This document shows positions 21,518-39,728 of a stretch of DNA of 64,000 nucleotides, piece after piece (position 1 is the stretch's first letter; every line of letters begins with the position of its first letter). The stretch lies in contig NZ_ACJM01000001.1 in NCBI RefSeq assembly GCF_000174415.1, forward strand, positions 124,001 through 188,000. Direction: 5' to 3'. A model generated the notes under the pieces. The model saw only the letters and a program-made list of their open reading frames with translations, did not search any database and was not told the origin of the DNA. A program made the translations under genes and the position numbers. The stretch is from Dethiobacter alkaliphilus AHT 1. Its GTDB lineage: Bacteria; Bacillota; Dethiobacteria; Dethiobacterales; Dethiobacteraceae.

Positions 21518-21718
21518 ATGAAGCGCAGGCCGGATGAACCGGGGTACGAATATCGTGAACCAGAAACGCAAAAAAGCCTTCATCGGCCCCAAGGCAGCCC
21601 ACAACCCAGGGAGGTCCAGTCTCAGCAGGCACAATTAAAAAGTATACATAAACATGGTACCAATAAAGCCCTGAAAGCCAATATGTTTAAGAAAAAAGAC
21701 CTGAAATATGATAAGTAG
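21518..21718 (+). CDS. Small basic hypothetical protein
   Basis: A 66-residue hydrophilic product, rich in Lys, Arg, Gln and Pro, with no membrane segment and no recognised domain. AGGAGGT (21504-21510) is an excellent ribosome site for ATG 21518, and a terminator follows directly, so the gene is probably real. The composition is like small intrinsically disordered proteins of spore formers; no function is assigned. Confidence 0.65.
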   Translation: MKRRPDEPGYEYREPETQKSLHRPQGSPQPREVQSQQAQLKSIHKHGTNKALKANMFKKKDLKYDK

Positions 21719-22030: not shown

Positions 22031-23164
22031 ATGGACAAGGAAAATCTTATTGGCATCGTCTTACCTGTTAATCAATATAATCATCTCTCTAAACCTGGCC
22101 CAAAATTAAAAGCGATTTTATCATTTTACGAAAAGGCCGCCAGAATGAATGACTTATCTATATGCTATTTTCGTTTCAAGGACCTTAAAAGCACTAAAGA
22201 GCCCTTTATGGCGTATGTAAAAAGGGAGAATAGCTATGTGTTATGGGAGGTTGCTAAACCGTGGGTTATTTATAAGCGTACGGGACACCGAAGTAGTATT
22301 AATCCACTGATTGAATCTTTAATGAACGAGGGTATAAGAGTCTTCAACTCTTATAGAAATAATAATAAATATAAAATTTATAAAATGGTCAGGGACAATG
22401 AAGAGCTTAATAAACACCAACCGGAAACGAAAATAGCTTCACCGAGAACAATTAATGAAATGATGAGTCAATTTAATAGCCTTATGATCAAACCAGATAA
22501 CGGGGAAGTTGGAAGAGGGATTATGAAGTTAGAAAAAATGCAGGGTGACATTTGGTGTTTGTATGAAAAATCAAAGGAAAGAAAAAAAGGTCTTTGGAAA
22601 CAGACTTTCTTTGAGGATGAACTGCCGACAACCTTGTTGACAAAAATAAAAAATAGGCGATATTTGGTGCAGCAAACAATTGACCTGGCAACATTTTCAG
22701 GCAATCCGTTCGACATGAGGGTGTCAACACAAAGAAACCACCTGGGAGAGTGGCAGGTATCGGCAATTATAGTGAAGGTGGCAACGGACGGGCAATTTTT
22801 AACCAATGTTGGTCAAGGCGGCACCACCACAACTATTGAATATATATTAGCGGATCACCCCGTTTTTAATTTGGAGAAAGTAAAAATGGATATTTGTGAT
22901 TTAGCTTTAAAGCTAGCCAACCATATTAGTTTATATAAAAAAGATATGGCGGACTTCGGTTTTGATATCGGACTATCTAAAGATGGCATTCCTTACCTAA
23001 TCGAAGTTAACCACGTTTCTGATTATGGCACCTTGGCACTGAAAAATGGTAAGCTAATCGCCAATGAATGGAAGGATGTATTTACTACACCTATTAATTA
23101 TGCCCGGTTTTTATTGGCAGAAGTAAAAAGGGTTGAAGAAAAAGGTAGGAGCGATGACAGCTAA
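22031..23164 (+). CDS. YheC/YheD-family ATP-grasp protein 1
   Basis: A 377-residue member of the YheC/YheD ATP-grasp family (spore-coat-associated in Bacillus). The ATP-grasp landmarks are intact: nucleotide loop KPDNGEVGRGI (154-164), YLVQQTIDL, FDMRVSTQRN, FLTNVGQGG, and the metal-binding end FGFDIGL...YLIEVNH. This indicates an active carboxylate-amine ligase. It lacks the long N-terminal beta domain of the YheD-type members downstream. ATG 22031 follows GGGGAGGCG. It is the first gene of the cluster, behind a sporulation-like promoter, and its stop overlaps the next start (TAATG). Confidence 0.85.
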   Translation: MDKENLIGIVLPVNQYNHLSKPGPKLKAILSFYEKAARMNDLSICYFRFKDLKSTKEPFMAYVKRENSYVLWEVAKPWVIYKRTGHRSSINPLIESLMNEGIRVFNSYRNNNKYKIYKMVRDNEELNKHQPETKIASPRTINEMMSQFNSLMIKPDNGEVGRGIMKLEKMQGDIWCLYEKSKERKKGLWKQTFFEDELPTTLLTKIKNRRYLVQQTIDLATFSGNPFDMRVSTQRNHLGEWQVSAIIVKVATDGQFLTNVGQGGTTTTIEYILADHPVFNLEKVKMDICDLALKLANHISLYKKDMADFGFDIGLSKDGIPYLIEVNHVSDYGTLALKNGKLIANEWKDVFTTPINYARFLLAEVKRVEEKGRSDDS

Positions 23165-24246
23165 TGATGCACAGAGAAGAGAATTTGGGGGTTTTAGTTG
23201 ATAAATTAGTTTATTGGGGGATTCCATTTGGCAGAACGGGTTATGAAAATATAGCTTTTTATGAGGACGCTGCCAAGAAACACAACATTGCTCTTTCTTT
23301 CTTTCAGTTAAGTGATATTGACCTAACAAAAGGCCAGGTTCAAGCTTATGTAAAAAACGATGCAGGCAGTTACCGTAAGACCATAATTCCTGTACCAAAA
23401 GTAATTCATAATCGGGGGTTATATTTTTCAAAGAAGTCCAAAGCAAAAGTTGATGCACTATTGGCAGACGGAAAAATACTTTATAATCCCTGGAACCGCT
23501 TCCTAAAGCTAGAGATTCATAATTTGCTCTGGCAGGATCCTCAGCTGCGCCCCTACCTTCCTGAAACGTACAGGGCAACAAAGGAAACCATCAACGCCAT
23601 GCTGGAAAAATATAAACTTATTATCCTTAAGCCAAATGGAGGAAGCCTTGGGCATGGGTTAATGAAGCTAGAAAGAACAGGAGAAGAATTTCTGCTAACT
23701 CACTATAGTAATCGGGAAAAAGAGTGGAAGCAGTCTTCTTTCAGCGCAGAATTTCCTCAGGTACTGCTAAAGAATATCTCGGGTAGAAGTTATGCTGTGC
23801 AGGAGTTTATTCCTTTAGCAAAATATAAAGGTTGTGTTTATAACTTGCGTGTTGCGTATCAGAAAAACGGCACAGCACAATGGCAAGTCACCGGAGTGGT
23901 GGGGAAACTTGCTCATGACACCAATTTTGTCACCAATATAGCAAAGGGCGGAAAAGCATATTCGCTTGACGTTCTCCTGGAGAATAAGTTTAATGAGGCA
24001 AAGCTGCTCCAAGAGATTGAAATGTTTTGTTTCCAAGCGGCAAAGGCGCTGGAAAATGAGTATCCTGGGCTGGCTGATTTAGGTATCGATCTGGGTGTAA
24101 CCAAAGATGGGAATCTGAAGTTAATCGAATGTAATGGCAGGGGCTTACGCCTTTCGTTTAAAGATGCTCAGTTATATGAGGCATGGAGAGCAGCTTTTGA
24201 AACACCAATTCTCTATGGAAAGTATTTATTAGCTAAGGAGGATTAA
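23164..24246 (+). CDS. YheC/YheD-family ATP-grasp protein 2
   Basis: A 360-residue paralogue of protein 1, with the same domain order. The active-site pattern is intact: KPNGGSLGHGL (nucleotide loop), YAVQEFIPL, YNLRVAYQKN, FVTNIAKGG, then LGIDLGV...LKLIECNG with the Glu/Asn metal ligands. Translation is coupled to the upstream gene through a one-base TAATG overlap, and the MurF-like gene starts one base after its stop. Two closely related short ATP-grasp ligases placed directly before a Mur ligase suggest successive peptide-bond-forming steps. Confidence 0.85.
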   Translation: MMHREENLGVLVDKLVYWGIPFGRTGYENIAFYEDAAKKHNIALSFFQLSDIDLTKGQVQAYVKNDAGSYRKTIIPVPKVIHNRGLYFSKKSKAKVDALLADGKILYNPWNRFLKLEIHNLLWQDPQLRPYLPETYRATKETINAMLEKYKLIILKPNGGSLGHGLMKLERTGEEFLLTHYSNREKEWKQSSFSAEFPQVLLKNISGRSYAVQEFIPLAKYKGCVYNLRVAYQKNGTAQWQVTGVVGKLAHDTNFVTNIAKGGKAYSLDVLLENKFNEAKLLQEIEMFCFQAAKALENEYPGLADLGIDLGVTKDGNLKLIECNGRGLRLSFKDAQLYEAWRAAFETPILYGKYLLAKED

Positions 24247-24247
24247 A

Positions 24248-25645
24248 TTGAAGGCATTACCCTTAAAGGAAATTCTTGCTGTAATAGATGGTGAAGTTAT
24301 CGCCGGTTCCTCAGAGTTTGAGATAATTGACGTTAAAACATCTTCACCGGGGTTAAGAAACGGCACCTTATTTTTTCATACCAAAAAAGGACTTACCATC
24401 GACCAGAACTTTAATAGATATAAAAAAAGAGTAGCAATTGTAACGGATAAAAAGATTGATCTTGATCAATTAAATGATAATGTTACCTTGATAACAGTAG
24501 ACAATAGCGTTAATGCTTTAGCTAGCTTTACCTCTTATTACCGTGGATTATTTACTATTCCTGTAGTTGGGATCACCGGCACTGCCGGGAAAACCACCAC
24601 TAAAGAAATGCTTGCCCATATTTTACGAGGAGAGCAAAATGTGCAATGCACTTATAAAAGTATGAATGGCATTGTGCTAAATTTAAAATACTTGCTGGGG
24701 ATTAATGAGGATACAGACGTTGCTGTGTTTGAAATGGGTGTTTCTTATCCGGGAAACATCAGAAAAAGTGGCGCCGTTTTTAAACCAAGCATTGGAATGA
24801 TTACAAACATTGGTACTGCCCATTTAGAAACTTGCAAAACACTTGAACGGTATATTGGCGCTAAGGGTGAAATGCTTGAGGCACTAGATTATAAAGGCCA
24901 GTTACTGCTAAATAGCGATGATGAAAATATAAAAAAGATTGATCTACATCCCTTTAAAGGGCAGGTATACTATTTTGGACAGAAAAGTGAATGTGCTTAC
25001 CGTATCTCGCAAATAGAGTATGCAGCAGAAAAAATGGTGTTTCAGCTACACGTTAAGGGCCATAGTTCAAAGAGAGTTTATGTGCCGGGTCTGGGTGAGC
25101 AATGTGTCTATAATGCTGCCGCCGCCATTGCCGCCGCTCATCTAACGGGTATGGACCTGTCAAGTTGTATTGAACGGATAGGAAGTTTCAAACAAATGGA
25201 GAGACACGTTAGCGTGGAGCGCGGGCTAAATCGTGCCACCATCATTGATGATACCTGGAACTCAAATCCATCTTCTGCTTATGCCGCATTAAAAGTGCTT
25301 CAAAAAATTGCTGAGAATAAGAAGTCTGTAGCAGTTTTTGGCAAGCTGCAACGTTTAGGTGCAAAGCAACATGAGGAACACGTAAAGCTGGGAGCAAGAA
25401 TGAAAGAGCTTGGAATTAGCTGTTTGATTACCATTGGCAAAGATGCCCAAGATATTGGAGATGCAGCAATTCAGGCAGGGATTGCACAGGCAAATGTGTT
25501 TAACGTCTTATCAGCGGAGGAACTGCAGGAAAAATTATTATCAATAACAGATGAGAATACGGTTGTATTATTAAAAATGTCTCTTGATAAAATGGACCAA
25601 TCATATCGAAGGCAAATTATGACCATCAAATCCACTGAAAATTGA
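24248..25645 (+). CDS. MurF-like Mur ligase
   Basis: A 465-residue Mur ligase family protein. The N-terminal MurF-type domain (about 1-100) is followed by the ATP loop GITGTAGKTTTK (108-119). Next come VFEMGVSYPGNI, MITNIGTAHLE (central-domain His and Glu), and the C-terminal DDTWNSNPSSAYAAL equivalent of the MurF DDSYNANP motif. MurF joins D-Ala-D-Ala to UDP-MurNAc-tripeptide. Position inside an ATP-grasp cluster, away from other peptidoglycan genes, argues for a dedicated paralogue with another acceptor or dipeptide. The start is TTG 24248, with AAGGAGG six bases upstream. It is probably co-transcribed with the two upstream ligases. Confidence 0.85.
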   Translation: MKALPLKEILAVIDGEVIAGSSEFEIIDVKTSSPGLRNGTLFFHTKKGLTIDQNFNRYKKRVAIVTDKKIDLDQLNDNVTLITVDNSVNALASFTSYYRGLFTIPVVGITGTAGKTTTKEMLAHILRGEQNVQCTYKSMNGIVLNLKYLLGINEDTDVAVFEMGVSYPGNIRKSGAVFKPSIGMITNIGTAHLETCKTLERYIGAKGEMLEALDYKGQLLLNSDDENIKKIDLHPFKGQVYYFGQKSECAYRISQIEYAAEKMVFQLHVKGHSSKRVYVPGLGEQCVYNAAAAIAAAHLTGMDLSSCIERIGSFKQMERHVSVERGLNRATIIDDTWNSNPSSAYAALKVLQKIAENKKSVAVFGKLQRLGAKQHEEHVKLGARMKELGISCLITIGKDAQDIGDAAIQAGIAQANVFNVLSAEELQEKLLSITDENTVVLLKMSLDKMDQSYRRQIMTIKSTEN

Positions 25646-25676
25646 AGGCCTTGCAAAAGAGGTCCTTTTCTTTTCC

Positions 25677-25706
25677 GCACAGAGTTTATCTCTGCATCAT
25701 ACTCTA
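25677..25706 (+). promoter_or_regulatory. Candidate internal sporulation (sigma-K/E-like) promoter
   Basis: GCAC (25677-25680), 17 bases, CATACTCTA (25698-25706), the same spacing as at 21950. It lies 38 bases before the pseudo-ATP-grasp gene and would start the second half of the cluster. Confidence 0.45.
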
Positions 25707-25743
25707 AAACAGGGCTTAGAATTTTATCGACGGGGCGATAAAT

Positions 25744-26964
25744 TTGAATGAGGAACTTAAAAATATTTTCCGGGTCTTTGACGAGCAAAATAATGAGCTG
25801 CAACGAAAACTTCAGCAAGATTTGACTGCGGTAATTGAGCTTCTGAAAACTGAGAGCAAAGACGAACCATGTACGGATTTAAAGACGGAAAAACCAACTG
25901 TAGAAGCTCATGAGTTAAAAACAGTTGATATCGGTCTTATAGTGCATGCAAGCAGGCACCATTGGTTTATTGCAATGAAGCAGATTATGCAAGAGGTTGC
26001 CAGGAAGTACAAGAAGAGAATGGTGTTATTTACTGTTAACGACATTGATTTAGATAAAAGCAAAATAGATAACGCAGTTTTACTTGACGGGAGCAAAGAA
26101 GAGGTGGTTAACAGTCAAATTCCACCGCTAATTTTTAATTTTGTTCTTCACTCTAAGACCTCCAGCGTCTCCAAGATGCGCAAGTTGCGAATGGCCAAAC
26201 ACATTAAAGTTATAAATCCCATCAATAAGTTTTATCAAAACGTCTTATTTGATATGATTAGCGGAATTACGCAAACAAATGATTTTCTGCTGCCCTACAT
26301 TATGCTTACCGCTACTTCATTAAAGACGTTTTCCAAAAAGCATGACCGCTTCTATGTACTACCCCAGCGGGCAAAGAAAAAATGTCGCGCAATCGTAATA
26401 AAAAAAGTTAATAGCAATGAGGACAGTGAGCAATATGAAATAAAGCTCGGCAATTTCAGGCAGGTAGTTGTGGGGGAGAAGCTGTATAAATCACTAAAAA
26501 AACTAGTAAGAGACAAGAAATGTATGCTTGTTAAGGACCCCTTGCCGGTAAATTGGAATTATTCACCTCTGGAAATAAGAGGGTATGTGCAAAAAAACAT
26601 CAACGGTCAGTGGGAACTGCTGGACTTAATAGCCAAAAAAGAGATCTTTGCAAAAGACTCCATCTACGATGGTTCCACAGGCGAATTGGCAGAAATCCTA
26701 CTGGAAATTTTTCCGGATCAACTTAGCAATTTAAAGAAAAAAATACATGATGCTGCTATAGACGCCAGCCTAATTTTAGATTTCTATATCCCTAATATAG
26801 GAAGCTGCTATTTTGACTTTATTGTTGACCTAGATGCCAACCCTTACCTGCTGCGTGTGGGAGGCGCAGAACAAGAGAACTTTCTATATGAACATTCTCT
26901 CACTTGGCATAAGTACATTTTAAACATTGGCTTGTATTTGATTTTTCTTAGCAATAAGGATTAA
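25744..26964 (+). CDS. Divergent YheC/YheD-like protein, probable inactive ATP-grasp
   Basis: A 406-residue protein that aligns with the family by order and overall fold, for example RGYVQKNINGQWELLDLIAKKE against the paralogues' RIxxQKN...W region. The catalytic signature is lost. Where the others have KP.xGxxGxGI it reads LPQRAKKKCRAIVI, and the terminal metal-binding IEVN/IECN is LLRVGG. A charged, coiled N-terminal segment (about 1-55) is unique to it. It is therefore likely a scaffold or regulatory pseudoenzyme. The start is TTG 25744 with a weak GGGGCGAT site. Confidence 0.62.
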   Translation: MNEELKNIFRVFDEQNNELQRKLQQDLTAVIELLKTESKDEPCTDLKTEKPTVEAHELKTVDIGLIVHASRHHWFIAMKQIMQEVARKYKKRMVLFTVNDIDLDKSKIDNAVLLDGSKEEVVNSQIPPLIFNFVLHSKTSSVSKMRKLRMAKHIKVINPINKFYQNVLFDMISGITQTNDFLLPYIMLTATSLKTFSKKHDRFYVLPQRAKKKCRAIVIKKVNSNEDSEQYEIKLGNFRQVVVGEKLYKSLKKLVRDKKCMLVKDPLPVNWNYSPLEIRGYVQKNINGQWELLDLIAKKEIFAKDSIYDGSTGELAEILLEIFPDQLSNLKKKIHDAAIDASLILDFYIPNIGSCYFDFIVDLDANPYLLRVGGAEQENFLYEHSLTWHKYILNIGLYLIFLSNKD

Positions 26965-26975
26965 AGGTGGTATTC

Positions 26976-28337
26976 ATGAGATGGATAAGCATAGAGAAAA
27001 TGACGGAGGAGCACGAAGGTCCGGCCAAGACGATTTGCATTCCTGGCACCGATTTGCAGTTTGATGAGGTGACGCTGGTCTATGGTGCCAAAAGAATTAC
27101 AGCGCAAGTTAAGAAGAATGGCATTAGTATGATAAAGCAGGACGGAGAGATCGACAATGGCATAACCTATTTGTCTAAAGCACTGATAGAGGAATTGTGT
27201 CTTGTGACAACGCAACCCTATCAGTTAAAGATAACAGAAAGCACGATAGAGCTAGGCCCGGTAATTGGTTTATTGTTAGGAGAACAGCAATATTATTACC
27301 ATCATAATACTATGCAGGAATATACCGATGCGATGGTAAGGGCAGAAGAATTTGGAGGCCTTGTTGTGGCTTTTAAACTATGTTCAATTGATTGGCGCTC
27401 AGAGAGTGTGTACGGACTGTACTTCGATGTTAAACAAAAGAAGTGGCGCTACGGAAAATGCCCAATTCCATCAGTTATTTATCGGAGAGCGTTCAATCAT
27501 GAGGATAAAGATGTGGAACTATTAAAAAAGACGGTGGGAAGTACTTTGTTTAATGACAGAAAACTGGATAAACTGCAGATGTATCAGAGGCTGCAAGGTT
27601 TTCCTTCTTTTAAACGTTACCTCCCTGAAACGGCTAAATTGACAATAGATGTTTTTCACAGATTTTTAGACCGCTATGACAAAATCATTTTAAAACCTGC
27701 TGATTTGTCCAGGGGGAGAGGTATCTGTGTTCTCCAACAGGACGGCGATAAATTATCTATTGTAGATTCTTTGGCAGAAGCTATTCCCATCAGAATCAAA
27801 CTGAGCAGAGAAAAGGCGGTTGACTATATTTCAGAAAGAGGGTACCTGACAAAAAATTATCTGGTGCAACCCTTTTTGGCCTTTTCAAAGATTAATGGTT
27901 CTCCCTGGGATATTCGTATCATTATGCAAAAAAATGATAATTTGCGCTGGCAATGCAACGGCATCGAATGTCGTCTTGCCGGAGCCAATAGCTATTTGAC
28001 AAATATTTCCCGTGGGGGAAGAGCTCTTACCATCAACCAAGCCATTAAACTCACCTACGGACCGCAGACTAACGTCAAATTGATAAAAAAACAGATAATA
28101 AGTGTAGCCACAGAGTTTTGCACCGTGATGGATGACGGAGATGGGCATTTTGCTGAATTCGGGTTAGACTTTGCGCTTGATGAGCAGCAAAACATCTGGT
28201 TTATTGAAGCCAATGTCAGACCCACATTTAATGGTTTTAAAAGGCTGGAGTACAAAAATTACTTGCATATCAGTTCGGCCCCCCTTTTTTATGCTGTTAA
28301 GCTGTCAGGTTTTAAGAGGAGTAAAAAGCATGAATAA
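26976..28337 (+). CDS. YheC/YheD-family ATP-grasp protein 3 (long, YheD-type)
   Basis: A 453-residue protein. The N-terminal beta-rich domain (about 1-110) ends in LGPVIGLLLG, characteristic of YheD-type members. The ATP-grasp part has KPADLSRGRGI, YLVQPFLAF, WDIRIIMQKN, YLTNISRGG and FGLDFAL...WFIEANVRP, so catalysis is expected to be intact. ATG 26976 follows AAAGGTGG; an in-frame GTG at 26967 is part of that site. The stop overlaps the next start by eight bases. The presumed role is a spore-surface or cortex-related ligase; the substrate is unknown. Confidence 0.83.
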   Translation: MRWISIEKMTEEHEGPAKTICIPGTDLQFDEVTLVYGAKRITAQVKKNGISMIKQDGEIDNGITYLSKALIEELCLVTTQPYQLKITESTIELGPVIGLLLGEQQYYYHHNTMQEYTDAMVRAEEFGGLVVAFKLCSIDWRSESVYGLYFDVKQKKWRYGKCPIPSVIYRRAFNHEDKDVELLKKTVGSTLFNDRKLDKLQMYQRLQGFPSFKRYLPETAKLTIDVFHRFLDRYDKIILKPADLSRGRGICVLQQDGDKLSIVDSLAEAIPIRIKLSREKAVDYISERGYLTKNYLVQPFLAFSKINGSPWDIRIIMQKNDNLRWQCNGIECRLAGANSYLTNISRGGRALTINQAIKLTYGPQTNVKLIKKQIISVATEFCTVMDDGDGHFAEFGLDFALDEQQNIWFIEANVRPTFNGFKRLEYKNYLHISSAPLFYAVKLSGFKRSKKHE

Positions 28338-29661
28338 CTTAATAAAAATATTACCTGATGAACAGTTTCAAAATAGAATTACGCTAAGTTCCCGCTTAGT
28401 TGGCCAAGAACGAAAAATCACTTATGTGAGGTTTGGGAGTAGATGCTGTGAGGTTAGTGTGTACGTTTCCCCTGAACTTGCAAAGAATGAGGCCTTACTG
28501 TCAAGTAATGTTATTCGGGCACTACAGGTTCCACTTCAGCCTCTGTATATGTTGAAAATACGCCAATATGAAATGGAGTTTGGGCCCTATATTGGGTTGT
28601 TGGCTTTTAGGAAGAAGGCAAACTTAGACGAATACATCTCTAACCTGACTAATTATCTTTATGACTACCAAAGCATAGGCGGCGCTGTTTTAGCCTTTTC
28701 GGCAGAAGGCGTAGACACAGAGAAGCAATTAATTGACGGCTATATTTATAATCCAGATCTAAATGAATGGGAGCAAGGACTTTACCCGTTTCCCGCATCT
28801 TTATTTAAACGAGCGGGAATGAGAAAATCTCTTCGCGACCACTTTCATTCTTTGCTTGGGCAACGAATCTTTAATAGCTATATTTTTAATAAGTGGGAAA
28901 TGCACACTTGGCTGTCCAATTTTGAGACAACAAAACCTTATTTGCCGGAGACAATCTTGTATGAAACGGCCAAAGATGCTTTGTGGTTTTTAAAAACCTA
29001 CAATGAAGCATTCATTAAACCTATTTCTGGCAGTCAGGGGGAAGGAATCTTAACGGCTAAAAAAATCGGGAATCATTATGTTTTTAAGTTTAGGGAAGAA
29101 GGAAATATCCAGAAAAAAATAATTGAAACCCAAGAAGAAGCCATGGCATTTATGAAACGGCTATTACGCAAAGACGCATATATTATTCAGCAGCCACTGT
29201 CCTTACTAAAACATGAGGATAGAGTCATAGACTTTAGAATGTTATTGGTTAAGGACCAGAACGGCAAGTGGGAAGATTTTAATCTTATTACCCGCTTTGG
29301 CAAAAGTGGCAGCTATGTGAGCAATATTTCCGATGGGGGTAGTGCTGAGTTAGCTATGAGTACCTTTACAGGAATTTTCAGTTTATCTGCCGAGAGGGCC
29401 TATAAATTCCGCCAGGAGATAGCTCAAGTTTGTATCGATGCCGCGTTGAACCTGGAGAAATGTGGCATCCACGTAGGAAATCTAGGTATCGACGTGGCCA
29501 TCGATCAGGATTTTAAGATTTGGATCATAGAAATCAACAATAAAGATCCCAACCACACTATCTCCATTGATGCCAACGACCGGCAAACTTTTTACCAGAT
29601 CAAGAAAGCTAATATGCTTTATGCCAAGTTTCTGGCGGGCTTTGGAGAGGAGCAAGTATGA
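28330..29661 (+). CDS. YheC/YheD-family ATP-grasp protein 4 (long, YheD-type)
   Basis: A 443-residue paralogue of protein 3, with the FGPYIGLLAF end of the N-terminal domain. The ATP-grasp signature is KPISGSQGEGIL, YIIQQPLSL, IDFRMLLVKD, YVSNISDGG and LGIDVAI...WIIEINNKDP. Start ATG 28330 (GAGGAG upstream) lies inside the last codons of the previous gene; the longer in-frame extension back to 28171 overlaps that gene and is rejected. It is coupled to the next gene by an ATGA overlap. Intact metal ligands suggest an active ligase. Confidence 0.83.
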   Translation: MNNLIKILPDEQFQNRITLSSRLVGQERKITYVRFGSRCCEVSVYVSPELAKNEALLSSNVIRALQVPLQPLYMLKIRQYEMEFGPYIGLLAFRKKANLDEYISNLTNYLYDYQSIGGAVLAFSAEGVDTEKQLIDGYIYNPDLNEWEQGLYPFPASLFKRAGMRKSLRDHFHSLLGQRIFNSYIFNKWEMHTWLSNFETTKPYLPETILYETAKDALWFLKTYNEAFIKPISGSQGEGILTAKKIGNHYVFKFREEGNIQKKIIETQEEAMAFMKRLLRKDAYIIQQPLSLLKHEDRVIDFRMLLVKDQNGKWEDFNLITRFGKSGSYVSNISDGGSAELAMSTFTGIFSLSAERAYKFRQEIAQVCIDAALNLEKCGIHVGNLGIDVAIDQDFKIWIIEINNKDPNHTISIDANDRQTFYQIKKANMLYAKFLAGFGEEQV

Positions 29662-30974
29662 AGATAGTTAGTCAAAGCAAGTTGAAGAGAACGCAAATTA
29701 TGTTGTCACCCGATGTTTTCAAGGAATCTGATGTGCTGCCAAGAAAAGTGATTTTTCACTTCGGACAGTGGAAGAAAGAAGTAAATATTGTTCTGGAACC
29801 TACACTAGCACCTTACCAGATTGGCCTGTCAGAGCATCTGCTGCAAGAATATACTCTGCCGGATTGTTATGATTATGACATGCAGTGGGATGGCAGAAAT
29901 CTTAAAATAGGACCGGTGATAGCTTTTTTAACGATTCACAGTACGGAGAAGCTGGAGCAAAAATTAGACATTTTTGAAGGTTACTTTGCAGCCTACCCAC
30001 ACTTTCAGGGACTGATTTATATTTGTGCCATAGACGGAATCGATACCAAAGAAAAAAAGATAGATGGTTTTTACTATGACCCAACTCATGGTGCTGAGAA
30101 CAAGTGGAAGAAAGGCACTTTTCCATATCCCGGTGCCATGTATCGCAAGACAGGGTTTAGTGCCCGGCTCTATGATCAGATTATTAATGAACTGGGAGAT
30201 AAGCTGTTTAATACCTACTTCTTCAATAAGTGGGAATTGTGGGCCTGGCTATCACCTAATGAAGATTGTGAGAAATATTTGCCCCATACCAGGAGGGTTA
30301 CAGGCTTTCAAGACATCAAGGAAATGTTGGATTTGTACGGTGAGGTATATTTAAAGAAAGTAAATAGTCATAAAGCAAAAGGAATTATTAAGGTAGTACG
30401 GACAGGGACTGAATATAGTTTTATCTATCGACTTAGAGGAACAAAAAAATATACCGACCCTGAACAAATTGAGCATTTTATCAATGAAATCAACCAGAAA
30501 AAAGATTACCTTGTACAGCAGGCCATTCCCGTTAAAACTCACGAAGAGCGACACTTTGATTTTAGAGTGATTATGCAAAAAAACAGGTTGGGAAAGTGGG
30601 TTTGTAGTGGTAATATCGCCAGGTTCGGAAAAAAGGACAGCATAGCCACAAACTTTTTGTTAGCAGGATATGCTCTTTCAGGTAATGAAGCACTAAAAAC
30701 TGTGTTCAAATATAATGAGAGAGACGCTTTTATAAAAGAGCAGGAAATAATTCAGGCTTGTACCCTCATCTGTGAAAAGCTGGATCTTTGCTGTGGTAAC
30801 TATGGTGATCTGGGGGTAGACGTTATTGTTGACGAAAATCAAAAAGTGTGGGTTTTAGAGGTAAATAAGCTCCAAGATCATAAATACCCTGTTTATGCCC
30901 TAAATGATGAACAGATGTATTATAAAGTGACAACCACACTCTTTGAATATGCCGCTTTTTTAGCAGGGTTTTAA
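29658..30974 (+). CDS. YheC/YheD-family ATP-grasp protein 5 (long, YheD-type)
   Basis: A 438-residue last member of the cluster. It has the N-terminal domain with IGPVIAFL and YLVQQAIPV, FDFRVIMQKN and LGVDVIV...WVLEVNKL. The nucleotide loop is altered: KKVNSHKAKGII replaces the KPxxGxxGxGI of its paralogues, so ATP binding may be weakened or specialised. It shares ATGA with the preceding gene, and a 14-bp-stem terminator follows, closing the operon. Confidence 0.8.
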   Translation: MKIVSQSKLKRTQIMLSPDVFKESDVLPRKVIFHFGQWKKEVNIVLEPTLAPYQIGLSEHLLQEYTLPDCYDYDMQWDGRNLKIGPVIAFLTIHSTEKLEQKLDIFEGYFAAYPHFQGLIYICAIDGIDTKEKKIDGFYYDPTHGAENKWKKGTFPYPGAMYRKTGFSARLYDQIINELGDKLFNTYFFNKWELWAWLSPNEDCEKYLPHTRRVTGFQDIKEMLDLYGEVYLKKVNSHKAKGIIKVVRTGTEYSFIYRLRGTKKYTDPEQIEHFINEINQKKDYLVQQAIPVKTHEERHFDFRVIMQKNRLGKWVCSGNIARFGKKDSIATNFLLAGYALSGNEALKTVFKYNERDAFIKEQEIIQACTLICEKLDLCCGNYGDLGVDVIVDENQKVWVLEVNKLQDHKYPVYALNDEQMYYKVTTTLFEYAAFLAGF

Positions 30975-30980
30975 CCCAAT

Positions 30981-31020
30981 TAAGAGACCGCCGGTCATAT
31001 CTTTCCGGCGGTCTCTTATG
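30981..31020 (+). terminator. Terminator of the YheC/YheD-Mur ligase cluster
   Basis: Perfect 14-bp stem TAAGAGACCGCCGG/CCGGCGGTCTCTTA, seven bases after the last stop. Confidence 0.8.
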
Positions 31021-35040: not shown

Positions 35041-35212
35041 TAGAGTACAAACTCACGCGTTATCTGGAGAATAAAAAGTACCCAAATGTTGGTAATGTTT
35101 AGCTAAACCTACTGTAATTGTGAGATTTATTATTTTCTTGTTGTTAAGCTGGGCATGGTGGCTTGTTTCCGGAGTAAGAGGTATATTCAATTATTGTGAG
35201 GTGGTATACAAA

Positions 35213-37135
35213 ATGACACAGCTTGAAGACCTCATTAATAAAGACCGGCAGGAAAGAAAGAAAGAAATGTTTGAAGGGACGCTTCTGGATTACCTGGCGC
35301 TTCTCCAGGCCGATAAGTCCCTTTGTATGCTGGCACATCAGCGGATGCATGAATTGATTGTCAATCGGGGGGTAGAGGTTGTTAACACGGAAGACCATCC
35401 CCGGCTAAGAAGAATCTATGGCCACACAGTACTGAAGAAGTACAATTTCTTTAAAGATGAGTTTTTTGGTATCGATAAAACATTGATGAAAATCGTCAGT
35501 TATTTTCATGCTGCGGCAATGAGAGGAGAGGAAGCACGTCAGGTCCTCTATCTGGTGGGTCCTGTAGGGGCTGGGAAATCTTCCATTATGGAGGCCTTAA
35601 AGAAAGCTTTGGAGATAAGCCCGCCCATTTATGCCCTTAAGGGATGTCCCATGAGGGAAGAACCACTCCATTTAATACCCAAACATCTGCGAGCGGAATT
35701 TGAAGAGCTTTTACAAGTACAAATAGAAGGCGATTTATGCCCGGTATGCAGGTATCGACTAAAAGAGGAATACAATAACGAATACGAACATTTTCCTGTA
35801 GAAACGGTAGATTTCAGCATCCGTTCCAGAAAAGGAGTAGGAGTTGTCCCCCCCGTTGATCCCAATAACCAGGACACCTCTGTTTTAATCGGCTCGGTAG
35901 ATATATCCAAGATAGATTTATATTCTGAAGATGACCCCAGAGTGTTATCTTTAAATGGCGCTTTTAATGTGGGCAACAGAGGGATTGTGGAATTTATTGA
36001 GGTCTTTAAGAATGAAGTGGAATATCTTCACACAATGATTACCGCCACACAGGAGAAGTCTGTCCCTGCTCCAGGCAAGGGCTCCATGATCTATTTTGAC
36101 GGTATTATTCTGGCCCACTCCAATGAGGCGGAATGGAACAAGTTTAAAGCTGACCATACCAACGAGGCTATACTGGACAGAATCGTTAAAATAGAAGTGC
36201 CCTACTGTTTGGAGCTAAATGAAGAAATAAAAATCTACAATAAAATTATCAACAAGAGTCAGTTTAAAACACATATTGCCCCGCATACCATTCAAGTTGC
36301 TTCTATGTTTGCAATCCTTACCCGCCTGACGCCTTCACCTAAAGTCGATCCTTTAACAAAACTGAAGATCTACAACGGAGAAGAAATTGTTGAGAAGGGC
36401 GCAACAAAAAAAGTTGATATTTTAGAATTACGTGAGGAAGCACAACGTGAAGGGATGTCCGGCATCTCCACCCGTTTTATTATGAAAGCGCTGGATTCTG
36501 CCATGACTGAATCCGAGCATGGTTGCATCAATCCCATCTCTGTCTTAGAGACCCTTGTTAAATCGGTTAAAGAACTAACCATTGGGGATGCGGATAAGAA
36601 AAGGTATCTGAATTTTTTACAGGATACAATTAAAAAAGAATACCATAATATTCTGGAAAAAGAAGTAACCAAGGCCTTTATCCATGGATACAGGGAACAG
36701 GCGGAAGAGTTATTTAACAATTATCTGGATCATGCCGAAGCCTATGTAAACAAAACAAAAATCAAAGACAGTAATACCGGTGAGGAACTGGAACCCGATG
36801 AGTCGTTTATGAGGTCCATCGAAGAACAGATTAATATCACCCAGTCTGCTGCCGGCGGTTTTCGTCAGGACATAACATCCTATATGTTTTTTGTAATGCG
36901 CGGCGGCGGGAAAATAGATTATGAAAGCTATGAGCCTCTAAAAGAAGCCATCGAGAAAAAGTTAACCACATCTGTTAAGGAATTGAGCCGTGTAATAACC
37001 CGCTCCAAAGTAAGGGATAAGGAGCAGAATGTAAAGTACGGCGCAATGGTGGAAGAAATGAAAAAGAACGGTTACTGCGAACATTGCTGTAATGTAATTC
37101 TGAAATATGCTGCCAATAATCTGTGGAAGGATTAA
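35213..37135 (+). CDS. prkA: PrkA AAA+ serine protein kinase
   Basis: A 640-residue PrkA family protein. The N-terminal AAA+ module has Walker A GPVGAGKSS near residue 117, a zinc-like CPVCRYRL insertion and IYFDGIILAHSNEAEW. The C-terminal PrkA kinase domain ends CEHCCNVILKYA. It takes part in sporulation or stress signalling; later work describes related proteins as ATP-dependent proteases (family knowledge). ATG 35213 follows GAGGTGG. The open extension to 35120 is hydrophobic and not supported. It is first of the conserved prkA-yhbH-spoVR triad. Confidence 0.94.
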   Translation: MTQLEDLINKDRQERKKEMFEGTLLDYLALLQADKSLCMLAHQRMHELIVNRGVEVVNTEDHPRLRRIYGHTVLKKYNFFKDEFFGIDKTLMKIVSYFHAAAMRGEEARQVLYLVGPVGAGKSSIMEALKKALEISPPIYALKGCPMREEPLHLIPKHLRAEFEELLQVQIEGDLCPVCRYRLKEEYNNEYEHFPVETVDFSIRSRKGVGVVPPVDPNNQDTSVLIGSVDISKIDLYSEDDPRVLSLNGAFNVGNRGIVEFIEVFKNEVEYLHTMITATQEKSVPAPGKGSMIYFDGIILAHSNEAEWNKFKADHTNEAILDRIVKIEVPYCLELNEEIKIYNKIINKSQFKTHIAPHTIQVASMFAILTRLTPSPKVDPLTKLKIYNGEEIVEKGATKKVDILELREEAQREGMSGISTRFIMKALDSAMTESEHGCINPISVLETLVKSVKELTIGDADKKRYLNFLQDTIKKEYHNILEKEVTKAFIHGYREQAEELFNNYLDHAEAYVNKTKIKDSNTGEELEPDESFMRSIEEQINITQSAAGGFRQDITSYMFFVMRGGGKIDYESYEPLKEAIEKKLTTSVKELSRVITRSKVRDKEQNVKYGAMVEEMKKNGYCEHCCNVILKYAANNLWKD

Positions 37136-37161
37136 ACACATGCTAAATGGTGGTGATAAAC

Positions 37162-38334
37162 ATGGCCATTTTCAGAGAGTTTGACAACAGGGGGCGGGAC
37201 CGCTCTGGAGAAGACAGAAGAAGGCATCAGGAACTGGTGGAAGATGCCATTAAGCGCAATATTAAAGATATTGTTGCCGAGGAGAGCATCATCGGCCAAA
37301 GCAAAAACAAAAAAATTAAGATTCCCATTCGCGGCCTAAAAGAATACCAATTTATCTACGGGAGAAACAAACCCGGTGTAGGGACGGGAAAAGGCGATGA
37401 AAAAAGGGGCGATAAGATAGGTCAGGATCAGGTGGATGAGGGCCAGGGCCACGGCGAAGCAGGTAATTCCGAAGGTGAGGATATCTACGAAACAGAAATT
37501 ACCATCGAGGAACTGATGAATTACCTGTTTGAGGATTTGGATCTGCCTTTTATGGAGAGAAAGAAATTCAGTGAACTTGAATCGGAAAAAATATTCAAGA
37601 AGCTGGGTTATCAGAGAAAGGGGATTCCCCCGCGACTGGCCAAAAAGAGGTCGGTCATTGAGAAGATAAAAAGAAAGAAGGCATCGCAAAGGGGTAAGCC
37701 TAAACCTTCAGTGCCGGAACCTGAGGAAGAAACGGAGCGTTTTCCCTTTAAAGAAGACGATTTAAGATACTATCGACTACGCCCGGAAATACGACGGGAG
37801 TCAAACGCAGTGGTGATCTGTATCATGGATACTTCCGGCTCCATGTACAGTACAAAAAAGTATTTGGCCCGCAGCTTTTATTTTCTTCTTTATCAGTTTA
37901 TAAGAACCAAGTATGTTAATGTTGAGATCGTCTTTGTTGCCCATACAACGGTTGGCAAGGAAGTTTCAGAAGATGATTTCTTCCATAAAGGGGAATCGGG
38001 CGGAACGTACATAAGCAGCGGTTATGAAAAAGCTCTGGAAATAATTGAAGAAAGATACGACCCGTCCATCTGGAACATTTATGCTTTCCATTGCAGTGAC
38101 GGTGATAATTGGCAGGAAGATGATGCCAAGGCAGTGGAGATGGCCAAAAAACTGTGTAGCATCTGTAATCTGTTTGGTTATGGAGAGATTATGCAGCGCT
38201 TCAGTACGATAAAAACGCAGTTTGCTACTAAAATAGATTATCCCAACTTTACGATTGTTACCATGTCAAAGAAGGAGGATATTATTCCTGCGCTTCGCAA
38301 GTTATTAGCCAAAGAGCGAGCGCTAATGGAGTAA
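37162..38334 (+). CDS. yhbH: YhbH/YeaH family VWA-like sporulation protein
   Basis: A 390-residue DUF444 protein. The N-terminus FREFDNRGRDRSGEDRRRHQ is family-typical, followed by a Gly/Asp/Glu-rich linker, a basic region and a VWA-like domain with MIDAS-type DTSGSM near residue 222. YhbH is required for efficient sporulation in Bacillus; E. coli YeaH works with YeaG (PrkA) in nitrogen starvation (established). GGTGGTG upstream favours ATG 37162 over the in-frame ATG at 37147. It is 26 bases behind prkA and 8 ahead of spoVR. Confidence 0.93.
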   Translation: MAIFREFDNRGRDRSGEDRRRHQELVEDAIKRNIKDIVAEESIIGQSKNKKIKIPIRGLKEYQFIYGRNKPGVGTGKGDEKRGDKIGQDQVDEGQGHGEAGNSEGEDIYETEITIEELMNYLFEDLDLPFMERKKFSELESEKIFKKLGYQRKGIPPRLAKKRSVIEKIKRKKASQRGKPKPSVPEPEEETERFPFKEDDLRYYRLRPEIRRESNAVVICIMDTSGSMYSTKKYLARSFYFLLYQFIRTKYVNVEIVFVAHTTVGKEVSEDDFFHKGESGGTYISSGYEKALEIIEERYDPSIWNIYAFHCSDGDNWQEDDAKAVEMAKKLCSICNLFGYGEIMQRFSTIKTQFATKIDYPNFTIVTMSKKEDIIPALRKLLAKERALME

Positions 38335-38342
38335 TAAATCAT

Positions 38343-39728
38343 ATGGGAGAATATACCCTTCAACAACTGGAGCAATGGAATGATAAGATTGAAGCTATTG
38401 CCCGCCAAGAGGGCCTGGATTATTATGAGCAGGAATTTGAAATCTGCAGCTATGAGGATATGCTTTGTTATGAAGCTTACGTAGGTATGCCGGCCCATTA
38501 TTCGCATTGGAGCTACGGAAAAGTATATGAAAAAAAGAAAACACTCTACAGATATAATTTAGTTGGCTTGCCCTACGAAATGGTTATTAACTCAAATCCC
38601 TGCATCGCTTATCTTATGAAAGATAATACACTCCTTTTGCAAATTTTGACCATTGCCCATGTTTATGGACATAATGATTTTTTCAAAAATAACAGATTAT
38701 TCGCCCAGGGTACCCGGGCTGAGATAACAGTGGAAATGTTTAAAAATCATGCCGACAGAATCAGGAGTTATATACAGGATCCCAGTATTGGCTATGAGAA
38801 GGTTGAACGTATTCTGGACGCTGCTCATGCATTAAGGTTTCAGATAAGCAGGGTGGTGGGGGAAAAACCTCTTTCAGATGCGGAAAAAAAAGACAGAATG
38901 CTCCAGCAGTACTATGAAGACATCAAAATAAACAGTCCGCTGGAGCAAAAAAAAGAAATTTCCTACCCCGATATGAACCGTATTCCGCTGCAACCAACCG
39001 ATGATCTCGTCCAGTTTCTCATTGATTATGGCCGCCTGGAAGACTGGGAAAAGGATATTTTACAAATTGTAAGAAAAGAAACAAACTATTTCATTCCGCA
39101 AATCGAGACAAAAATTATGAATGAAGGCTGGGCAAGTTTCTGGCATTACAGGATTTTAAATCAATTGGAACTACCTCAACAGCTGCACATAGAATTTCTG
39201 AACCGGCATAACCAGGTTATCCGGCCTTTCTATGGTAGTCTTAATCCATACTACGTAGGCTTTAAAATATTTGAAGATATTGAAAAAAGATATGGGCGGG
39301 ATAAAATTTTTGAAGTCCGTGGTATGGAGCGGGATGCATCCTTTATCCGCAAATATCTAACCGAAGAAATTTGCCGGGAACTGAATTTATTTGAGTACGC
39401 CAAAAAAGGAAGCTTCTATATTATTGAGGAAATTGCTGACGATAAAGGATGGAAATCCATTAGAGATACCATTGCCAATAGTGTGGGGATGTCTTCAATG
39501 CCCTCTATTCAGGTTGTGGAAATGTCGCAGCGGGACCGCACCCTGAAATTGAATCATGATTTTGACGGCAGGGAATTGGAACTAAGATACGCCTATGAAA
39601 CCTTAAAACACCTTGCTACCCTGTGGGATGGCAAAATACAATTGACAACTATTATAAACAATGCAGAGAAAGTGATAGTGTGTGACGAAAATAAAAAAGT
39701 CACCATGACCGGTGTGCTGATAACTTAA
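38343..39728 (+). CDS. spoVR: SpoVR family protein
   Basis: A 461-residue SpoVR/YcgB family protein, full length for the family. Family features include LEQWNDKIEAIARQEGLDYYEQEFE at the N-terminus, a HVYGHNDFFKNN histidine motif, NEGWASFWHYRIL, and FYGSLNPYYVGFKIFEDIE. SpoVR is needed for normal spore cortex formation in Bacillus (established). Co-transcription with prkA and yhbH is expected from the tight spacing, and a terminator follows. Confidence 0.95.
   Translation: MGEYTLQQLEQWNDKIEAIARQEGLDYYEQEFEICSYEDMLCYEAYVGMPAHYSHWSYGKVYEKKKTLYRYNLVGLPYEMVINSNPCIAYLMKDNTLLLQILTIAHVYGHNDFFKNNRLFAQGTRAEITVEMFKNHADRIRSYIQDPSIGYEKVERILDAAHALRFQISRVVGEKPLSDAEKKDRMLQQYYEDIKINSPLEQKKEISYPDMNRIPLQPTDDLVQFLIDYGRLEDWEKDILQIVRKETNYFIPQIETKIMNEGWASFWHYRILNQLELPQQLHIEFLNRHNQVIRPFYGSLNPYYVGFKIFEDIEKRYGRDKIFEVRGMERDASFIRKYLTEEICRELNLFEYAKKGSFYIIEEIADDKGWKSIRDTIANSVGMSSMPSIQVVEMSQRDRTLKLNHDFDGRELELRYAYETLKHLATLWDGKIQLTTIINNAEKVIVCDENKKVTMTGVLIT

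Follow-up and report, generated by a model that had tools for sequence, protein, structure and literature searches.

The window analysed here is a stretch of 64,000 nucleotides from Dethiobacter alkaliphilus AHT 1 (GCF_000174415.1, contig NZ_ACJM01000001.1, positions 124,001 to 188,000). It carries seven co-directional genes at positions 22031–30974, encoding six ATP-grasp proteins of the YheC/YheD family (YheCD, PF14398) and one MurF-like ligase (MurFl). The cluster may be a dedicated pathway for non-ribosomal amide (isopeptide) ligation that serves the spore surface and uses an acceptor other than peptidoglycan; we give this reading an even chance.

MurFl differs from the housekeeping MurF. 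Its score against the NCBIfam model murF (TIGR01143) is 258.8 bits, below the cut-off of 288.6 bits, and its gene is located outside the dcw cell wall cluster. The canonical MurF (406.2 bits) is encoded at C6:24401–25684 within the dcw cluster, beside MurE, MraY and MurD-type genes. This separate copy rules out MurFl as the housekeeping enzyme; the sequence-only reading of the window had set a sole housekeeping MurF at this place against its own proposal. A quick tree of 94 Mur proteins placed MurFl among 49 non-housekeeping proteins, which a single branch sets apart from 45 housekeeping MurFs (Shimodaira–Hasegawa-like approximate likelihood ratio test, SH-aLRT, 100); the tree is unrooted and the separation is an unrooted split. 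Nearest relatives are proteins of Lederbergia (47% identity) and Metabacillus. Full-length matches with about 37%–44% identity are present in Bacillaceae, Paenibacillaceae and Clostridia.

A column comparison located the differences. MurFl retains the ATP and catalytic positions T110, G111, G114, K115, E162, H192, K206 and D335, but is altered at the N-terminal DSR and DGH positions, at R320 and E369 and at the C-terminal R446. In the N-terminal MurE/MurF signature, the DSR part, which we take from established structural work to be tied to the binding of UDP-N-acetylmuramic acid (UDP-MurNAc), is present in 45 of 45 housekeeping MurFs and in none of the 49 proteins of the MurFl group; residues 32–34 of MurFl are S-S-P. 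The predicted structure has a predicted local distance difference test (pLDDT) score of 95.5, and the closest solved fold is MurF 4qf5 with a template modelling (TM) score of 0.85. Columns and model point to an enzyme with Mur-like fold and chemistry and with a different acceptor recognition.

The pairing of ATP-grasp and Mur-type ligases is known from cyanophycin synthetase CphA1, which combines an ATP-grasp G domain with a Mur-like M domain (PMC9427784). The analogy had been drawn from the sequence alone, and it is backed by natural YheCD–Mur fusions in six genomes: four Lysinibacillus, Bacillus sp. FJAT-49711 and Peribacillus kribbensis. The fusions consist of the YheCD, a linker, directly thereafter the P-loop, and the Mur middle and C-terminal domains. 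They have the G–M layout without the UDP-binding Mur N-domain. The likeness ends at the type of ATP-grasp domain, which in window and fusions is of the YheCD and not the CphA type. Unlike the single chain of CphA1, the window has both domains on separate genes. MurFl reaches only 60.4 bits against TIGR02068 (cut-off 850 bits), and a true CphA1 with 1112.8 bits is encoded in the same genome at C15:53570–56152 (L136). Score and true CphA1 rule out that MurFl or the cluster is a cyanophycin synthetase, and because the latter enzyme is present on C15, the window cluster has to be something other than cyanophycin synthesis. Separately, proteins of about 950 amino acids at C7:113533–118700 (L137) have CphA-type ATP-grasp domains, no Mur domain and, judged from the sequence, an apparent acylphosphatase-like segment.

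A modified stem peptide, or another precursor of cortex or germ-cell wall peptidoglycan, would be a very unlikely product. The sequence-only reading had considered it by reference to the succession of Ddl and MurF. The full three-domain MurF fold of MurFl would suit such a role, as would a Ddl-like ATP-grasp beside the island of one relative, G101. However, MurFl and all other members of its group (49 of 49) are without the UDP-MurNAc signature, which makes stem-peptide synthesis unlikely. Further MurF-invariant positions are altered, the fusions do without any UDP-binding domain and the dcw cluster already provides a housekeeping MurF. The YheCDs are not of the Ddl type either: the Ddl family PF07478 had no match in the seven window proteins. 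The succession of Ddl and MurF is not supported for this cluster.

Pfam families confirmed all seven genes of the cluster as first read, six YheCDs and a MurF-like ligase, and the division of the YheCDs into two short, three long and one degenerate protein agrees with their lengths. Five YheCDs have PF14398 scores of 197–234 bits; the degenerate protein has 44.9 bits, also above the gathering cut-off of 26.8 bits. The features in order are:

22031–23164, forward strand: Y1s, short YheCD ATP-grasp protein, 377 amino acids; PF14398 196.6 bits; residue pattern KGGRRNGDSEN with every checked ATP-grasp residue present
23164–24246, forward strand: Y2s, short YheCD ATP-grasp protein, 360 amino acids; PF14398 220.1 bits; module A partner directly upstream of MurFl
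24248–25645, forward strand: MurFl, MurF-like ligase, 465 amino acids; Mur_ligase_M and Mur_ligase_C domains; model pLDDT 95.5
25646–25743, forward strand: gap of 98 nt between modules A and B, dividing the cluster into two blocks
25744–26964, forward strand: Y3deg, predicted YheCD pseudoenzyme, 406 amino acids; PF14398 44.9 bits; residue pattern LKRRKDGDDRG
26967–28337, forward strand: Y4l, long YheCD, 456 amino acids; PF14398 209.4 bits; directly downstream of Y3deg
28330–29661, forward strand: Y5l, long YheCD, 443 amino acids; PF14398 233.7 bits; model pLDDT 94.3
29658–30974, forward strand: Y6l, long YheCD, 438 amino acids; PF14398 228.4 bits; residue pattern KAGRKNGDDEN
30982–31017, no strand assigned: GC-rich 13-bp hairpin without T-run, read from the sequence; possible terminator

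The genes overlap or are closely spaced, as had been described, with distances of −17 to 2 nt; the single exception is the 98 nt after the Mur gene. The start of Y5l is most likely the ATG at 28330, which is preceded by GAGGAG, rather than the mechanical TTG at 28171, and with this start the overlap of −17 shrinks to −8. MurFl has a TTG start with a strong AAGGAGG ribosome site. Genome-wide, PF14398 has 13 matches in 3.11 Mb on 34 contigs: the window and a second cluster, on contig C4, account for six each, and C5 has the remaining one. Because 6 of 13 matches are located in the window, the clustering is far above chance. The C4 cluster includes a paralogue of Y2s with 54% identity and lacks a Mur gene; its flanking genes encode a kinase-like protein and a group 1 glycosyltransferase.

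By gene order, the cluster is composed of two modules, A (Y2s–MurFl) and B (Y3deg–Y4l–Y5l(–Y6l)), and each recurs with its gene order in distant spore formers. Metabacillus and Lederbergia also have Y2s followed by MurFl, and in the Y2s tree as in the MurFl tree the window protein groups with those of these two genera (SH-aLRT 99 each). The order of module B is found in Neobacillus (L121), in two metagenome-assembled genomes (MAGs) of Peptococcaceae (L122) and Clostridiaceae (L123), and in G101 (L106). In L121 and L122, MurFl and module B share an island and are separated by phosphonate-type genes. In 399 genomes, sampled evenly from the phylum, there are 14 MurFl-type genes above 200 bits, ten of them with YheCDs nearby; seven of these ten are from one family, which limits their independence and makes a binomial probability for the linkage approximate. 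An embedded Mur ligase had been thought to go beyond what is usual for YheC/YheD. The neighbourhood survey speaks otherwise: the YheCD–Mur pairing recurs widely in spore formers.

Related islands contain further amide ligases that are not part of the window cluster, namely COOH-NH2 ligases (PF14395) and L-amino acid ligase (LAL)-type ligases, one of them fused to a YheCD. LAL-type ATP-grasp genes lie beside MurFl/YheCD islands at L083:6649–7860, L125:9529–10752 and L126:9819–11078, assigned by a Pfam scan for L083 and by sequence likeness for L125 and L126. Beside MurFl in L121, L122, L105 and L132 are genes for a phosphoenolpyruvate mutase, a phosphonopyruvate decarboxylase-like protein and a nucleotidyltransferase/aminotransferase; the families were assigned by Pfam on the L105 homologues of the L121 and L122 genes. 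They hint that some versions of the system use an aminophosphonate as a building block. Similarly, YheCD and MurFl have Asp/Glu racemase genes as neighbours in Brevibacillus (L079) and in G022 of the same class (L134), a hint that certain versions use D-amino acids. The window cluster has neither kind of gene. In G101, at least 12 YheCDs surround one MurFl (L106 and L129, contig C3), adjoining the Ddl-like ATP-grasp and a gene of the lysine 2,3-aminomutase family.

The mixture of ATP-grasp, COOH-NH2, LAL-type and Mur-type ligases with phosphonate genes in related loci resembles secondary metabolism. A diffusible peptide metabolite unrelated to the spore surface, such as a signal, a siderophore-like compound or an antibiotic, is nevertheless an improbable product. 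The cluster contains no transporter or resistance gene, and its relatives are found repeatedly in spore formers and beside CotE. YheC and YheD of Bacillus subtilis are also linked to spores (PMC7911427, PMC517825).

The YheCDs were scored at 11 ATP-grasp positions, for which the active consensus is close to KGGRKNGDDEN. ATP- and metal-binding residues are present in five of the six window proteins, with an alanine at one loop glycine in Y6l. Y3deg has lost the ATP-binding lysine, the glycine loop and the metal-binding Glu/Asn. Its orthologues in Neobacillus, the two MAGs and G101 (two copies in the latter) are likewise all without the loop glycines and the metal-binding glutamate, and the lysine is also gone except in the Clostridiaceae copy. 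The family forms one clade (SH-aLRT 99) with 24 invariant columns of its own in the alignment. A decaying pseudogene is ruled out, because orthologues in four genomes have the matching catalytic losses and yet share these columns. The degeneration noted in the first reading is real with respect to the catalytic residues, but it is not decay; the alignment identifies Y3deg as a conserved pseudoenzyme. In all four other genomes it is encoded directly upstream of the Y4l orthologue. Y4l belongs to a clade of 10 (SH-aLRT 100), in which the orthologues of Metabacillus (L125) and Lederbergia (L127) have an N-terminal extension similar in size to Y3deg. The tree does not place this extension with Y3deg, and an origin by fusion is only suggested.

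Similarities to solved structures bear on another possibility, that the ligases modify coat or exosporium proteins directly, with single amino acids or short chains attached at side chains or C-termini in the manner of the tubulin tyrosine ligase (TTL)/TTLL enzymes or RimK, instead of building a peptide polymer that is free or linked to a glycan. The YheCD profile finds the polyglutamylase TTLL6, TTL and glutathione synthetase among its matches, and the Y5l model matches RimK with a protein substrate, TTL and ATP-grasp ligases of ribosomally synthesised and post-translationally modified peptides. In the YheCD family, a spore-coat location is known for YheD of B. subtilis only, which lies at the spore surface and associates with itself (PMC7911427). 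However, the likeness is a general one among ATP-grasp ligases: the Y5l model matches D-Ala-D-Ala ligases with equal scores, and the similarity of YheCDs to TTL/TTLL, RimK, Ddl and glutathione synthetase is about equally weak. The TTL-like polyglutamylases and RimK share with YheCDs the ATP-grasp amino-acid ligase type and a weak profile or fold similarity, at a very low identity of 10%–16%. The sole candidate for a peptide substrate upstream of the cluster, a 66-codon open reading frame (ORF) at 21518–21718, was rejected since no homologue of it turned up in the 60 relatives from the same family and class. Furthermore, we know of no Mur ligase that acts on proteins. Direct protein modification is an unlikely explanation, though it retains appreciable weight.

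For the preferred reading, an amide ligation pathway of the spore surface, the spore link postulated at the outset received indirect backing. In several Desulfotomaculia-type loci, four YheCD genes are preceded by a gene for a protein with the domain of the outer coat protein CotE and followed by one for a COOH-NH2 ligase. The CotE domain has 93 bits in L112 (L112:275–904), and similar sequences are present in L108, L110, L113 and L115. CotE has been described as not conserved in Clostridia (PMC8745062), in contrast to these genes. The window genome encodes SpoIVA. Strong YheCD matches were found in 18 of 40 SpoIVA-positive and in 3 of 20 SpoIVA-negative genomes among the 60 relatives (Fisher p 0.025, a test that ignores relatedness); the three SpoIVA-negative genomes with YheCDs are fragmented or incomplete. 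In B. subtilis, yheC and yheD are under the control of sigma-E and SpoIIID (PMC517825), and YheD surrounds the spore as a shell (PMC7911427); its function is given as undetermined in the latter study. All six window proteins belong to the same family, but the window differs from B. subtilis in having six linked paralogues, one of them a conserved pseudoenzyme, and a Mur-type ligase. A Mur partner is not described in these B. subtilis spore papers.

Several observations weigh against a spore surface pathway. The co-occurrence of YheCD and SpoIVA in the class is only moderate. CotE was absent in a search of the window genome. The MurFl gene is mostly missing from the close relatives of this genome, the best matches among the 60 relatives having at most 34% identity. 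The Mur gene of the Desulfotomaculia-type loci is on a separate branch and often convergent with the YheCDs. Consensus scans for sigma-E, sigma-G and sigma-K found no match upstream of Y1s, the first gene, and thus no sigma-E-like promoter.

ATP-grasp and Mur ligases both form acyl phosphates and then couple amines. In the proposed pathway, the five YheCDs predicted to be active and MurFl would transform a carboxylate into an acyl phosphate and couple it with an amine in a stepwise manner, probably in the mother cell during sporulation. Y3deg may serve as a non-catalytic partner or scaffold for Y4l. The acceptor would be a carboxylate other than a UDP-MurNAc-peptide and might belong to a free peptide, a glycan or a coat protein. 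If cyanophycin synthetase is a guide, backbone extension or the addition of single residues might fall to the ATP-grasp enzymes, and MurFl might attach a side branch or a further unit. A more far-reaching proposal is possible but on balance doubtful: an undescribed system of spore formers, in which YheCDs, an inactive YheCD and a repurposed MurFl build a non-ribosomal, branched or isopeptide-linked polymer on the spore surface, of an origin independent of cyanophycin synthetase but with the same ATP-grasp-plus-Mur logic.

Two decades after YheC and YheD became known as spore proteins, they still have no assigned activity. The partnership with a Mur ligase, the operon order, the fusions and the signature loss turn this into a concrete, testable biochemical hypothesis. 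If it is true, spore surfaces bear enzyme-built peptide material that is invisible to proteomics based on gene sequences, with relevance for spore resistance, adhesion and permeability. It would also be a second natural case of combined ATP-grasp and Mur ligases and help to understand the synthesis of amino-acid polymers. The open literature yielded no paper joining YheCD with Mur ligases; subscription journals were outside the scope of this search and an earlier mention is possible. A 2009 survey of amidoligases by Iyer and co-workers reportedly covers such ATP-grasp families and may already mention the link. The component families were already known; to the extent that this could be checked, the novelty lies in the altered Mur group, the conserved pseudoenzyme, the division into modules and the fusions.

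The single terminator assigned to the end of the cluster in the sequence-only reading exists as the hairpin at 30982–31017, but it lacks a T-run and was not listed by the terminator scan. Within the 98-nt gap, a weak hairpin with a T-rich tail at 25647–25664 is at chance level. A sigma-K-like match at 25679 in the same gap was dismissed as unconvincing, with 13 such matches across the window. The counts of sigma-70 and terminator scans were at the shuffled expectation. MurFl was not found on plasmids, with no plasmid match at E 1e-60. In G022, three ORFs resembling an IS66-type transposon separate a YheCD from a MurFl gene that misses its N-terminal part (L135:9492–11829). A gene trio of PrkA, DUF444 and SpoVR is located at 35120–39728 of the window, 4 kb downstream of the cluster.

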